A stretch of DNA of 64,000 nt from Aureivirga marina (GTDB lineage Bacteria > Bacteroidota > Bacteroidia > Flavobacteriales > Flavobacteriaceae): NCBI RefSeq assembly GCF_015767265.1, contig NZ_JADPIB010000008.1, forward strand, positions 124,001 to 188,000, read 5' to 3'. The notes below the pieces were generated by a model. That model did no database searches, was not told where the DNA came from, and saw only the letters and a list, made by a program, of their open reading frames with translations. A program made the translations under genes and the position numbers. This document shows positions 14,581 to 47,483 of this stretch, one piece after another. Position 1 is the first letter of the stretch; every line of letters begins with the position of its first letter.

Positions 14581-14665
14581 GGGCGCGCCTAAAGTCGGGC
14601 TTTCCGCTATATCTTTTGCTGCAAATCTGCAAGCAGCAAAAGGATGCCGCTGCAATCCCTCGCGC
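14581..14665 (-). repeat. structured repeat element, copy A (short form)
   Basis: On the minus strand this holds the invariant core AGGGATTGCAGCGGCATCC, a TTTTGCTGC/GCAGCAAAA hairpin, and GATATAGCGGAAAGCCCGAC. It is closed by GCGCG (14661-14665) pairing with CGCGC (14583-14587). Copies B and C use GCGTT/AACGC for the same helix, so the closing pairs differ in sequence but keep pairing. The accessory CCT...AGG hairpin of the other copies is missing here. It starts only 9 nt after the dinB stop codon, so it would be transcribed as part of the dinB 3' UTR. Confidence 0.8.
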
Positions 14666-14674
14666 ATTTCAACT

Positions 14675-15760
14675 TTAAAAATCAAATCGCAATTGTCGAT
14701 TTTTTGGCGGCTCTTTTTTTTCAGTGTTTAAATTTGATAAACTAATTCCAAGCAAACGAACAGAATTTTGAATTTTATCTTGATACAAAAGTTGCTTTGT
14801 CAATTCTAAAATTTCTTCTTTTGACTCTAAAAATGTTTCTAATGTTCGACTTCGAGTTTGGACAGAAAAATCGCTGTATTTTATTTTCAATGTAATTGTT
14901 TTTCCTCTTGTTTTTGATTTTTCAATTCGACGAAATAATTCTTCAGCAATCTGTTCTAACTTTTCCATCATAAAAACTTCAGAAGTTAAGTTTTCTGTGT
15001 ATGTATATTCCACAGCAATCGACTTTCGAATTCGATTTGGTTTCACTTCACTTTTTTGAATTCCACGAACAATTTGAAAATAGTGTTTCCCAGAATTTTT
15101 AAAATGTTGCTCTAAAAATTCTAAAGACTTTCCTTTTAAATCTTTTCCTGTGAAAATTCCTAAACTATACATTTTTTTAGCAGTAACTTTTCCAATTCCA
15201 AAAAACTTTTCAATTGGAAGTTCTTCTAAAAAATCATTCACTTCTTCTGGTGGAATTGTTTTTTGTCCATTTGGTTTGTTAATATCCGAAGCAATTTTTG
15301 CTAAAAATTTATTGATTGAAATTCCTGCGGATGCATTTAAACCTGTTTTTTCTTTAATTTCTTCTCGAATTTGTGTTGCGATTTTACTAGCAGATTTGAT
15401 TCCTTTTTTGTTTTCAGTTACATCTAAAAAAGCTTCATCCAAAGACAGAGGTTCTACCAAATCAGTGTATTCATGAAATATTTTTCGAATTTGTTGTGAA
15501 ATCTCACGATAACGAGGAAAACGATGTTTTACAAAAATCAAATCAGGACAAAGTTCTTTAGCTAGAGCTCCAGAAATAGCAGAACGAACACCAAATTTTC
15601 GTGCTTCGTAACTTGCAGCAGCAACAACTCCACGAATTCCTCCACCACCAACAGCAATAGGTTTTCCACGTAATTCAGGAAAATCTAATTGTTCTACAGA
15701 AGCATAAAAAGCATCCATATCAATGTGAATAATTTTTTTTATGTGTTTTTCTGTTTCCAA
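14675..15760 (-). CDS. dinB: DNA polymerase IV (Y family)
   Basis: This is an error-prone translesion DNA polymerase that extends past damaged template bases. The N-terminal HIDMDAFYASVEQ (residues 12-24) holds catalytic carboxylates, and EPLSLDEAFLDVT near residues 100-112 holds the third. The steric region VAAASYEARKFGVRS and the little-finger domain (VEYTYTENLTSE onward) are present. The C-terminus RQLRFDF resembles a beta-clamp binding motif. The length of 361 aa is normal. The start is a TTG at 15760; no ATG lies upstream of the catalytic motif, and a good promoter ends about 18 nt upstream, leaving a very short leader. It is convergent with the hemolysin III gene. Confidence 0.95.
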   Translation of the reverse strand: METEKHIKKIIHIDMDAFYASVEQLDFPELRGKPIAVGGGGIRGVVAAASYEARKFGVRSAISGALAKELCPDLIFVKHRFPRYREISQQIRKIFHEYTDLVEPLSLDEAFLDVTENKKGIKSASKIATQIREEIKEKTGLNASAGISINKFLAKIASDINKPNGQKTIPPEEVNDFLEELPIEKFFGIGKVTAKKMYSLGIFTGKDLKGKSLEFLEQHFKNSGKHYFQIVRGIQKSEVKPNRIRKSIAVEYTYTENLTSEVFMMEKLEQIAEELFRRIEKSKTRGKTITLKIKYSDFSVQTRSRTLETFLESKEEILELTKQLLYQDKIQNSVRLLGISLSNLNTEKKEPPKNRQLRFDF

Positions 15761-16223: not shown

Positions 16224-16233
16224 TACTGTAAAT

Positions 16234-16339
16234 TGCGTTAGGGATTGCAGCGGCATCCTTTTGTGGAAGAATGGAACAAAAGATATAGCGGAAAGCCCGA
16301 CCTAATTCCTGAGTGAAATCGAAGGAATAGGAAACGCCC
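16234..16339 (+). repeat. structured repeat element, copy B (5' leader position)
   Basis: The core AGGGATTGCAGCGGCATCC and GATATAGCGGAAAGCCCGACC are identical to copies A and C. The apical hairpin differs (TTTTGT/ACAAAA instead of TTTTGCTGC/GCAGCAAAA) but still pairs. The closing helix is GCGTT/AACGC, and a third hairpin CCTAATTCC/GGAATAGG is present. It ends 16 nt before the ATG of the acidic protein gene and starts just after a promoter-like box. Confidence 0.8.
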
Positions 16340-30423: not shown

Positions 30424-30476
30424 CTATACAATTTAAGAAATCTATTTGAATTTTATTTCTATTTCATTGAAATGAA

Positions 30477-30586
30477 TGCGTTAGGGATTGCAGCGGCATC
30501 CTTTTGCTGCTTGCAGATTTGCAGCAAAAGATATAGCGGAAAGCCCGACCTGATTCCTGAGGAAACCGAAGGAGAAGGAAACGCCC
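30477..30586 (+). repeat. structured repeat element, copy C (tyrS leader)
   Basis: This copy has the closing helix GCGTT/AACGC, the invariant 5' core AGGGATTGCAGCGGCATCC, the apical hairpin TTTTGCTGC/GCAGCAAAA (identical to copy A) and the invariant 3' core GATATAGCGGAAAGCCCGACC. Its accessory hairpin is CCTGATTCCT...AGGAGAAGG. It lies 44 nt before the tyrS ATG in sense orientation. Confidence 0.8.
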
Positions 30587-44634: not shown

Positions 44635-44648
44635 TTTAAAATAAAAAA

Positions 44649-44674
44649 CCGAAGTATTCCTAAAAATACTTCGG
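44649..44674. terminator. terminator between CYTH and MFS genes
   Basis: CCGAAGTATT (44649-44658) pairs with AATACTTCGG (44665-44674). The minus side is followed by TTTTTTAT, so it ends the MFS transcript; the plus side has only a weak T-run. Confidence 0.75.
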
Positions 44675-44682
44675 TATAAAAA

Positions 44683-45993
44683 TTAGGCCACAGACTTTGC
44701 CAATTTATTTTTTTCAGTTATCACTTCCATTTTTGTTTGTTGTTCAATATCCAATTCTCTTTTTAAAATAAAACCAAGAAAAACAGAGATTAGAAGTAAT
44801 AAAGACATTAAGTACCAATTTGCTTCAAAACCATAGTTTTCTACCATAAAACTTCCAAGTTTCCCACTGATAATATGTGCAGCAGAAAAAGCCATTGTGT
44901 ACATTGCCATATATTTTCCTTCTTTTCCTTTAGTAGCTCTGTCCATCGCTATTTTATTTGTAAAAGGGAAAGAGAACATTTCTCCAAATGTGATTAAAAT
45001 CATTGAGATTACTAAAATCATCAATGCGTGACCAAAGTTGAAGATTAAAAAACTAAAAAGCATCATTCCTAAACTTAAGATTGTCATTTTTACTTTTGAA
45101 ATTAATTTTTTCTCGATATAATGGATTAATGGCATTTCTAATAAAAAGATTAACATTCCATTTAAAGACATAAACAATCCGATTTCCCATTCTTCTAATT
45201 GATAAGCATTTCTATAATACAAAGGAAGAATTGAAAAAAGTTGTAAAAATGTGATTGCCATTAAAAAGACAATTAATATTAATAGACCAAATAAAATGAT
45301 ATTTCTACGGTTTTCACTTTTTGTTTTTGGAATATATACTTCTGATTCAGCTGTTTCTTCTATACTATTTCTTCTTTTCTTTGGATTTAATTTTGTGAAT
45401 AATAAAGACACAGCAAGAATACAAGTTATTCCATCTACCCAGAATAATCCATTATAATCTAAAGCTGCAATGATGATTCCTCCTAAAAAAGGACCAAAAG
45501 AAAATCCAAGATTAATTGCTAAACGAATTAAAGTTAAAGAACGAGTTTGGTTTTCTGGTTTGCTATAAGCCTTCATGGAAACAAACATTGCTGGACGGAA
45601 AGTATCCGCAATAACAATTGTTAGAAATATTCCTGTACAAAAGCCATAGAATGTATCTACATATTGGAGAAAAATGAACGAAATTCCTGTAAGAAATAAA
45701 CTTCCGACCATTACTTTATAATAACCAATCCTGTCTGTAAGTTTCCCACCAATCCAGGAACCAACAAAGGATCCAATTCCAAAAAAGACCATGACTGTTC
45801 CCACTTGTGAAAGAGAAAACCTCAAATCTTCTTGTAAATAAAGTGTCAAGAACGGTAAAACCATTGTTCCTGCTCGGTTAATAAAAGTAATAAAAGCTAG
45901 CCACCAAATTTCTTTTGATAAGCCTTTGTACGTATTTAAATACATTTCTGATGCATTACGTACTTTTCCTGTTAAAGAATTCAATAATAACAT
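44683..45993 (-). CDS. MFS transporter, drug:H+ antiporter-like
   Basis: This 436-residue major facilitator has twelve TM helices. The N-terminal half contains FITFINRAGTMVLPFLTLYLQE, then the loop 2-3 motif GSWIGGKLTDRIGYYKVM (a G-x-L-x-D-R-x-G-x-x-K type motif A). Antiporter motif C-like LGFSFGPFLGGIIIA in TM5 suggests export of small molecules. A charged loop with KLNPKKRRNSIEETAESE divides the halves. The 5' leader contains a promoter, a 28-codon ORF and an intrinsic terminator just before the start, pointing to attenuation. A role as an exporter of a ribosome-targeting compound is an inference from that leader, not from the protein itself. Confidence 0.9.
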   Translation of the reverse strand: MLLLNSLTGKVRNASEMYLNTYKGLSKEIWWLAFITFINRAGTMVLPFLTLYLQEDLRFSLSQVGTVMVFFGIGSFVGSWIGGKLTDRIGYYKVMVGSLFLTGISFIFLQYVDTFYGFCTGIFLTIVIADTFRPAMFVSMKAYSKPENQTRSLTLIRLAINLGFSFGPFLGGIIIAALDYNGLFWVDGITCILAVSLLFTKLNPKKRRNSIEETAESEVYIPKTKSENRRNIILFGLLILIVFLMAITFLQLFSILPLYYRNAYQLEEWEIGLFMSLNGMLIFLLEMPLIHYIEKKLISKVKMTILSLGMMLFSFLIFNFGHALMILVISMILITFGEMFSFPFTNKIAMDRATKGKEGKYMAMYTMAFSAAHIISGKLGSFMVENYGFEANWYLMSLLLLISVFLGFILKRELDIEQQTKMEVITEKNKLAKSVA

Positions 45994-46014
45994 TTTTCCA
46001 TAGATTAAATTTAA

Positions 46015-46053
46015 TTCAACAAAAAAAGCCCAGCATATACATATGCTGGGCTT
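46015..46053 (-). terminator. leader terminator upstream of the MFS gene
   Basis: On the minus strand AAGCCCAGCATAT pairs with ATATGCTGGGCTT (46053-46026), followed by TTTTTTT. It is a strong intrinsic terminator, placed only about 30 nt upstream of the MFS start codon and downstream of a promoter and short ORF. It would stop transcription before the gene unless prevented. Confidence 0.88.
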
Positions 46054-46080
46054 ATACCTTAAAAATTTTATAGAATATTT

Positions 46081-46167
46081 TTAATTTATATACACAGCGT
46101 GCCTATACAGTTGTCTCTTCTTTGAGACCTGTTTCGTAATGCACACGTATGTAATAAATAAATTCAT
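46081..46167 (-). CDS. candidate 28-residue leader peptide for the MFS gene
   Basis: An ATG at 46167 opens a 28-codon frame ending in TAA at 46081, starting about 18 nt after the predicted transcription start. The peptide starts MNLFITYVCITKQ and continues with VSKKRQLYRHAVYIN. Lys16-Lys17-Arg18 fits the basic-x-basic pattern at which macrolide-bound ribosomes are known to stall. The frame overlaps the 5' parts of two alternative hairpins, and an intrinsic terminator follows 28 nt after the stop. Position and design match leader peptides of inducible antibiotic-resistance genes. Whether it is translated is not shown. Confidence 0.65.
   Translation of the reverse strand: MNLFITYVCITKQVSKKRQLYRHAVYIN
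46087..46150 (-). promoter_or_regulatory. alternative hairpins of the MFS attenuator
   Basis: On the minus strand, segment 1 ATACGTGTGC (46150-46141) can pair with segment 2 GCACGCTGTGTAT (46102-46090, 3-nt bulge), enclosing a GTCTC/GAGAC hairpin (46113-46128). Alternatively, GCTGTGTATATA in segment 2 (46098-46087) can pair with TATAAGCCCAGC (46056-46045), with two single mismatches. That pairing hides the 5' arm of the terminator. This is the 1:2 versus 2:3 versus 3:4 logic of an attenuator. Confidence 0.6.
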
Positions 46168-46189
46168 TTGTTCTCGTTAGTTTGCCCTG

Positions 46190-46219
46190 CAAATATATTT
46201 TAAATATTTCAAAACCAAA
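46190..46219 (-). promoter_or_regulatory. promoter of the MFS leader transcript
   Basis: TTTG (46219-46216), 18-nt spacer and TATATTTG (46197-46190) on the minus strand match the Bacteroidetes consensus. The predicted transcript starts near 46185, about 190 nt before the MFS start codon. The rest of the 45994-46547 gap, 46220-46547, is AT-rich with no further feature recognised. Confidence 0.72.
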
Positions 46220-46547
46220 TAATTAATTGATGTAAATAATGTTTTTTTAACATTTAAAGCAATTTTAATTACTAGCAGAAGTAATTTTTATAAAAATTAA
46301 AGTTTGATTATCAATTATTTATTGTGCAAATCTACAGATAAATCTCTTTAGAAAATATAGTTTAATATTGAATAAAATTATACTTGAATAGGTCAATTTA
46401 ATAGTGAAAAAAGAATAAAAGATGAAAATTTTGTTTAGTTTTCCTAAAGAATTATTAAATAATTTGCAATTAAATTCATAAAGGAATAATTAAGTCTATA
46501 TTTATTTGGTATAAAATTTGAAAATACTTAGAAAAACAAATGAGATC

Positions 46548-47483
46548 ATGAGAGCTATAAAATACTTTTTCGGATTATTTTTCATCTTAATAACAGCAAG
46601 TTCGTGTGTTGTAGATGATGATTTTTATAGAGATGGGCCAAACCCTGGAATTACTTTGGATGAACTTTTAAATACCTATTCTATTTGGTATGTAGATTAC
46701 GATAGAACAGAAGGTCCTGATAATATTCCATTTCTTTCAAAAGCATTTACAATTTCATTTCAGAATGGAAGACTATATGCAAATAACAATTTAGTTGGAA
46801 TTGGACAAACAGGAAATGGACTTGGAGTTCAAATAGGTTATTATGATGCTTATGGAGAAACTTTAGAAGTTTTTCATGATTTAGATGGAAGATATGATTT
46901 CTATGTAGATCAGTTGGCAAATAATAGAATTCGATTAGTTAGTAAAAATTATGATGTTTCTTATTATTTAATCGGATACCATAGAAGTGATTTTGATTAC
47001 AATAGATTATTCTATGATAATATTGAATATTTTTTACAGGAATATAGAGCTTGGGAGAAGACATATACCTCACAATTAGGAGCTTTAAATGAATTTGATA
47101 ATGAGAATTTCTTAAGGTTTACACCAGAAAATTTAACAACATTTTATTCTTCTCAAGATCCTGTTGGTACAGATATTGATTTAATACAATGGGATTACGA
47201 AGGTAATTATGAAGTTTTTGACGTTCAGGGATACGATGATTTAAAGATTTTACGTTTAGACTATGATTTCTTTAACGATAATGAAGAATTTGAACTTACA
47301 GTTATTAACGATAGTACAATTTCTCTTTATCATGTAGAATCAGGAACAACGTATCATTTCCAAGGAAGACAGTTTATTCCATTCTTGCGAGAAAATAATT
47401 CGAATGCAAGGGAAATTAAAAAGGAAAGAGAACGTTTTAAAGTAGAAAGAAAGATGAAAACTCGAAAGAGTTCTGAAAAATAA
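46548..47483 (+). CDS. unknown lipoprotein
   Basis: This product of about 311 residues has a lipoprotein signal (MRAIKYFFGLFFILITASSC, with the lipobox TASSC and the mature Cys followed by VVDDD). The acidic residues after Cys do not match a typical surface-export signal with certainty. The mature part is rich in Asp, Tyr and Asn with many short strands (YDAYGETLEVFHDLDGRYDFYVDQL and LIQWDYEGNYEVFDVQGYDDLKIL), and the tail is very basic (NSNAREIKKERERFKVERKMKTRKSSEK). The frame is open from a TTG at 46518, but the ATG at 46548 gives a clean lipoprotein signal. No family is recognised. Confidence 0.78.
   Translation: MRAIKYFFGLFFILITASSCVVDDDFYRDGPNPGITLDELLNTYSIWYVDYDRTEGPDNIPFLSKAFTISFQNGRLYANNNLVGIGQTGNGLGVQIGYYDAYGETLEVFHDLDGRYDFYVDQLANNRIRLVSKNYDVSYYLIGYHRSDFDYNRLFYDNIEYFLQEYRAWEKTYTSQLGALNEFDNENFLRFTPENLTTFYSSQDPVGTDIDLIQWDYEGNYEVFDVQGYDDLKILRLDYDFFNDNEEFELTVINDSTISLYHVESGTTYHFQGRQFIPFLRENNSNAREIKKERERFKVERKMKTRKSSEK

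Follow-up and report, generated by a model that had tools for sequence, protein, structure and literature searches.

A predicted ribosome-mediated transcription attenuator upstream of a DHA1-type drug exporter gene in Aureivirga marina and other Flavobacteriaceae

The leader upstream of an MFS transporter gene of Aureivirga marina is very probably a ribosome-mediated transcription attenuator of a DHA1-type drug exporter. It was read as such from its architecture, its conservation across the family Flavobacteriaceae, the selection on its ORF, the co-evolution of both alternative pairings and the switching between them computed by folding. Read most economically, it would sense inhibitors that target the ribosome, whether of a single class or of more than one.

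The leader and the MFS gene were located on the minus strand of the window, i.e. the whole stretch of 64,000 nt that was analysed from the 3.93 Mb Aureivirga genome. The features of the locus, with the evidence for each, were as follows:

46190 to 46219, minus strand: Bacteroidota-type promoter consisting of TTTG (46219-46216), 18 nt and TATATTTG (46197-46190); sequence
46081 to 46167, minus strand: putative leader ORF of 28 codons, MNLFITYVCITKQVSKKRQLYRHAVYIN, stop TAA; frame conserved in 117 leaders, 5' part with a pN/pS of 0.56, in-frame shortage of acidic residues
46137 to 46153, minus strand: arm 1, the 5' strand of the predicted anti-antiterminator, within the ORF; minimum-energy fold and 1:2 swap test
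46107 to 46132, minus strand: smaller hairpin AGGTCTC...GAGAC...CTGT inside the loop closed by the 1:2 stem; minimum-energy fold
46077 to 46105, minus strand: arm 2 (46105-46091 with arm 1, 46098-46077 with arm 3), including the stop codon; folds with and without a ribosome, co-evolution with both partners
46045 to 46066, minus strand: arm 3, the 3' strand of the predicted antiterminator, shared from 46053 on with the terminator as its 5' strand; folding, swap test (p = 5e-19), pair counts with controls
46019 to 46053, minus strand: intrinsic terminator AAGCCCAGCATATGTATATGCTGGGCTT and U tract; sequence, covarying terminator in all leaders
44683 to 45993, minus strand: putatively regulated gene, MFS transporter of the DHA1 (drug:H+ antiporter) type, 436 aa; Pfam MFS_1 (9e-54), motifs A and C
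44648 to 44675, minus strand: terminator 3' of the MFS gene, in keeping with a single-gene transcription unit

The promoter, the 28-codon ORF and the strong terminator before the MFS start had been described in an initial annotation of the DNA, and all were present. The terminator hairpin (46053-46026) contained 12 pairs, 6 of them G-C, was followed by the U tract and stood just 5' of the MFS gene, 27 nt after the stop codon of the leader ORF. The pairing of an early ORF segment with a later one, also proposed there, was borne out as the 1:2 hairpin of 46153-46137 with 46105-46091. The alternative 2:3 pairing of the later segment with the 5' arm of the terminator agreed exactly with that description, joining 46098-46087 with 46056-46045 in 10 pairs with two mismatches; the annotation had missed 8 further A-U pairs (46084-46077 with 46066-46059) by which the antiterminator was extended. 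The fold energy of the leader was -49.7 kcal/mol, compared with -30.7 +/- 3.7 kcal/mol for shuffled sequences (z = -5.1).

The MFS protein carried the MFS_1 domain together with motif A (GKLTDRIGYYK) and motif C (G...GP..GG), which place it among the DHA1 drug:H+ antiporters, and the antiporter motif C was seen in 30 of 30 MFS orthologues. Its closest relatives in the PDB were YajR, VMAT and NorA. By these features the protein is a drug:H+ antiporter by type, and a role in export is predicted.

Several other elements were observed in the window. An out-of-frame ATG was located 8 bases 5' of the MFS start and opened a 6-codon ORF, MEKCYY (46001 to 45981, minus strand), overlapping the MFS start codon; this ORF was not conserved as such, because its frame stays open longer in the sister species. 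A divergent ORF with a lipoprotein-like N-terminus (46518-47483, plus strand) gave no match in Pfam or NCBIfam. Three Flavo-1 RNA motifs (RF01705) scored above the gathering threshold at 14589-14678 (minus strand), 16230-16306 (plus strand) and 30475-30554 (plus strand).

The effect of a ribosome was computed by sliding-ribosome folding, in which the RNA to the end of arm 3 was folded with a ribosome placed at each codon. The 5' strand of the terminator was sequestered with a probability of 0.76-0.80 when the P site was at least 13 codons before the stop, the range at 13-16 codons being 0.78-0.80, and of 0.08-0.17 when it was within 9 codons of the stop. Early-stall sequestration fell to 0.44 when the upstream sequence was shuffled. 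In the Aureivirga leader, an antiterminator of -12.7 kcal/mol formed for ribosome positions from codon 12 to codon 18 and was no longer present at codon 20. The position of the ribosome decided between the two structures in the computed folding, and the model predicts that the outcome changes sharply some 12 codons ahead of the stop, an earlier stall giving the antiterminator and a later one the terminator. The region before this point is referred to below as the ON zone.

In the computed Aureivirga leader without a ribosome, the pairing of arm 2 with arm 1 already had a probability of 0.99 when arm 3 had yet to be made; therefore, the default state is predicted to be OFF. Family-wide, arm 2 was bound upstream at 0.66 without a ribosome, and the terminator strand was sequestered at 0.61 on average at equilibrium, which makes the modelled no-ribosome state ambiguous at equilibrium across the family. 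Due to this weaker default, untranslated leaders may be ON or OFF depending on the species. The earlier proposal that either completed translation or none would lead to termination was upheld for Aureivirga, but its no-ribosome half was thermodynamically ambiguous in most relatives, though the 1:2 hairpin was usually predicted to form first.

We proposed the following mechanism. RNA polymerase would begin at the TATATTTG promoter and transcribe the 28-codon ORF first. A ribosome finishing the ORF would cover arm 2 and leave arm 3 free to pair with arm 4 as the terminator, so that the pump would stay OFF. A ribosome stalled no closer than about 10-12 codons to the stop would instead cover or disrupt arm 1; arm 2 and arm 3 would then form the antiterminator, and the polymerase would enter the MFS gene (ON). 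When no ribosome is present, arm 1 would occupy arm 2, allowing the terminator to form, which is clear in the Aureivirga model and less so in relatives. Translation of the ORF, termination and read-through on stalling are the steps that we infer here. The signal would most likely be a ribosome inhibitor, plausibly a substrate of the pump, with stalling likely at the conserved stretch Lys-Gln-x-(Ser/Thr)-Ser immediately 5' of the switch point.

A comparison of leaders of orthologous MFS genes across Flavobacteriaceae, which the initial annotation had suggested as a check, revealed a conserved ORF and co-evolution of both pairings. The sample consisted of the upstream regions of 130 MFS orthologues in the family, and the leader architecture was found in 115 of them; these and two regions from MAGs (L036 and L038) made up a set of 117 leaders. 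The ORFs of this set had 16-30 codons and mostly began about 20 nt 3' of a TAnnTTTG promoter, and the terminator stood shortly 5' of the MFS start. From TAnnTTTG to ATG the Aureivirga leader measured 22 nt, and most orthologous leaders fell between about 17 and 24 nt. Two further regions (L092 and L079), read by eye, had an apparent GTG or TTG start replacing ATG. The sole congener in the comparison set was Aureivirga sp. CE67 (G033; contig NZ_JADOTV010000005.1); the leader of the sister species was 79% identical to that of Aureivirga marina, and SKKR was also kept there.

A strict automated detector was positive for 106 of the 130 family regions (27/30 and 79/100). It returned 0/123 for control terminators from the same loci, 0/34 for orthologues of the large genus g127 (probably Flavobacterium) and 0/43 for relatives outside Flavobacteriaceae; furthermore, 33 of the 34 MFS upstream regions of g127 lacked a terminator-like hairpin. 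From the counts by group it follows that the leader is old within the family and was probably lost in g127.

The g127 loci (L183, L187, L189, L192, L198 and L232-L260) carried the MFS orthologue without leader or terminator; in one of them, L189, the MFS start codon was about 20 nt 3' of the promoter element TAACTTTG. The pump of this genus may be unregulated or regulated differently. Outside the family, a by-eye reading of locus L184 gave a 25-codon ORF (MSNYKTKYTVVCDPWDCCRKSYLNL), a terminator and a possible GTCGGAA/TTCCGAC antiterminator. This locus failed the automated test and was not counted; its sequence suggests that the leader might extend beyond Flavobacteriaceae.

A covariance model (R1) was built from 74 leaders and searched against 396 genomes of the order. 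It gave 16 strong matches (E < 1e-5), all 16 preceding the orthologous MFS gene. The model consists mostly of the terminator: matches with E above about 5e-5 were other terminators, none of those inspected preceding an MFS orthologue, and no further leader-controlled gene came from it.

The leader ORF was examined for signs of coding. A short ORF, presumably translated, lay between the promoter and the terminator in the 117 leaders. The distance from the stop in the ATG frame to the terminator was 26 +/- 4.7 nt, and it was 15-35 nt in 111 of the 117; a stop at 15-35 nt occurred in just 4/117 and 6/117 leaders in the other two frames. Among 26 non-overlapping pairs of relatives, pN/pS in the part of the ORF preceding the last 12 codons was 0.56 (p = 1.6e-4), and in those 12 codons it was 0.90 (not significant). 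By this sequence comparison, the first part of the leader peptide is under purifying selection and the last 12 codons are not, RNA pairing being dominant there. Acidic residues in the ON zone numbered 5/900 in frame versus 82/1662 in the other frames (p = 6e-11).

The composition of the ON zone was skewed in other respects. A set of 69 divergent leaders had almost no codons for Asp, Glu, Ala, Gly or Pro in this zone (21/900), and Thr was three times as frequent there as in the other frames. This skew may reflect requirements of the nascent chain. The bases 5' of the leader start codon were mostly A-rich, in keeping, by analogy, with the preference of Flavobacterium johnsoniae, in which A at -3 favours initiation (PMC6847099). 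The frame, selection and composition of the ORF suggest that it is translated.

The alternative pairings were assessed by swap tests, in which the pairing energy of a leader's own arms was compared with that of arms taken from other leaders. Own partners were better than foreign ones by 2.85 kcal/mol for the 2:3 pairing (p = 5e-19) and by 4.3 kcal/mol for the 1:2 pairing (p = 4e-19). The control pairings of arm 1 with arm 3 and of arm 1 with the spacer, needed by no model, were null (p = 0.88). The leaders share ancestry, so the p-values overstate independence and are not to be taken literally; the control pairings, which were null in these very leaders, are more reliable. In alignment A2, 86% of the cells of the 2:3 core were paired, and its covariation was 0.223 versus 0.168 +/- 0.011 after shuffling, dropping to 0.006-0.08 when the core was slid by 1-3 columns.

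The terminator covaried in all leaders, and with the co-evolving 2:3 pairing it formed a terminator and an antiterminator that are mutually exclusive. RNAalifold on alignment A1 gave the terminator only, because the alternative pairings conflict, and swap tests, pair counts and sliding-ribosome folding were used instead. The core of the initial annotation, by which an early stall would cause read-through and finished translation would cause termination, gained strong support from the conservation, the coding selection, the co-evolving pairings and the position-by-position folding.

The signal itself was considered next to the composition of the peptide. The antibiotic link is suggested by the type of exporter, the peptides having no conserved known arrest motif, and any assignment of an inhibitor class or a pump substrate is a guess. 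A set of 69 peptides sharing less than 50% identity showed enrichment of Lys at 5 codons, and of Gln at 3-4 codons, ahead of the switch point, and of Ser/Thr at positions -1 to +1. It is possible that the leader is a general translation-stress sensor with no dedicated arrest motif, in which the pump would be turned on whenever elongation or initiation slows, whether through one of many drug classes or through another stress, as proposed for toiL of E. coli. Such a sensor would agree with the width of the ON zone, which takes in every position further than about 12 codons from the stop, with a peptide variable apart from KQ and S/T, with a no-ribosome state that is not clearly OFF in many relatives and with the precedent of a multi-class uORF sensor (PMC12121999). 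However, the N-terminal purifying selection, K/Q/S/T at fixed places and the near-lack of acidic residues argue for a nascent-chain requirement. Arrest of the phenicol or oxazolidinone type, which requires Ala, Ser or Thr as the penultimate residue, is rather unlikely. Ser/Thr were enriched at the last ON positions, with 29/69 at the boundary versus a background of 21% (p = 1e-4), and this fits the A/S/T rule for chloramphenicol that is cited in PMC12121999, as a lead only; but these are common residues, and Ala was nearly missing from the ON zone (0.4%).

The initial annotation had named Lys16-Lys17-Arg18 as a basic-x-basic motif of macrolide-dependent stalling. With Lys17 in the P site, the ribosome would stand 12 codons short of the stop and remain within the Aureivirga ON zone, and the motif is among the residues retained in the sister species. 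Macrolide-specific arrest at this site is nevertheless improbable, since a basic-x-basic motif was present in the ON zone of 21 of 114 distinct leader peptides, a count below the 33.5 +/- 4.0 of shuffled peptides. As a property of the family, the motif was rejected: it was depleted in the ON zone, and the features conserved in its place were Lys-Gln, Ser/Thr at the switch point and the scarcity of acidic residues. A charged-tRNA attenuator such as those of biosynthetic operons would follow the identical 1:2, 2:3 and 3:4 logic, and leaders of this type were reported in Flavobacterium psychrophilum (PMC9723704). Of 117 leaders, 114 had one or more Thr in the ON zone and 85 had two or more, but K, V, I, Q and Y were nearly as universal, runs of a single residue were not found, and the regulated gene encodes an exporter with drug-antiporter motifs, not a biosynthetic enzyme. 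Amino-acid sensing is accordingly given very little probability; it was rejected on an ON zone that held neither a dominant residue nor a codon run. A ligand-binding riboswitch, to which the ORF would be incidental, could account for a structured leader with conserved pairing, but no conserved binding-core sequence was found beyond the ORF and the switch, and the gathering threshold of Rfam was not reached. It was rejected as the main reading because the frame, the stop position and the N-terminal residues of the ORF, and also its start codon, were conserved, and it is hardly credible.

Searches for a known counterpart gave no match of the leader region above the gathering score of Rfam, loose thresholds returning only far sub-threshold matches to the terminator region, and the papers searched yielded neither a description of this leader nor expression measurements for the MFS gene. 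The proposed sensor of ribosome-targeting inhibitors may belong to a previously undescribed, family-wide class of antibiotic-sensing arrest peptides in Bacteroidota, although this is put forward tentatively. Such a class would have its own acid-free Lys-Gln-x-(Ser/Thr)-Ser nascent-chain code and provide intrinsic inducible drug export in much of Flavobacteriaceae, with loss in one large genus. Inducible resistance via stalled ribosomes is best known from Firmicutes; the ribosomes of Bacteroidota initiate without Shine-Dalgarno pairing, and transcription-translation coupling is little studied there. If true, the proposal would add a chromosomal, ancient and widely conserved case of inducible resistance in Bacteroidota, and it predicts a gene that a large environmental family turns on when ribosomes are hit. 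It would also make some 100 naturally occurring versions of an uncharacterised arrest peptide available, and an inducing drug would give a simple test of the pump substrate.

Several described systems resemble parts of the Aureivirga-type leader. In Flavobacterium psychrophilum, of the same family, leader-peptide attenuation was proposed for amino-acid operons, and the 'efflux' mentioned there was not tied to attenuation (PMC9723704); those operons are biosynthetic, and g127, probably Flavobacterium, lacks an Aureivirga-type leader. The tetQ leader of Bacteroides belongs to the same phylum and is antibiotic-responsive, as is predicted here, but its control is reported at the translation of a ribosome-protection gene (PMC5418344), whereas transcription attenuation of an exporter is proposed for Aureivirga. 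The toiL-topAI leader of Escherichia coli has a uORF sensing ribosomes stalled by several drug classes (PMC12121999), and a stall-sensing uORF is predicted here too; its output differs, being translation initiation and Rho termination in a toxin-antitoxin operon rather than an intrinsic terminator before an exporter gene. In the mef/mel (mefA-msrD) system of Streptococcus, as listed in the review PMC5418344, a transcription attenuator likewise precedes an MFS efflux gene, but the peptide is macrolide-specific and the operon mobile, whereas the present gene is chromosomal, family-wide and without a conserved macrolide motif. In bmrB-bmrCD of Bacillus subtilis, a translated leader ORF, alternative stem-loops and a terminator precede a multidrug exporter that is induced by ribosome-targeting antibiotics (PMC4191407). 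That system has a 53-codon leader with a GTG start and an ABC exporter and occurs in Firmicutes, whereas the Aureivirga-type leader, put at 22-29 codons for this comparison, has an unrelated peptide, an MFS exporter and a host among Bacteroidota without Shine-Dalgarno, its induction being a prediction. The two share no evident common leader sequence or gene family; the logic of a leader ORF, exclusive stem-loops, a terminator and an exporter, here predicted from the sequence, is the same in both.
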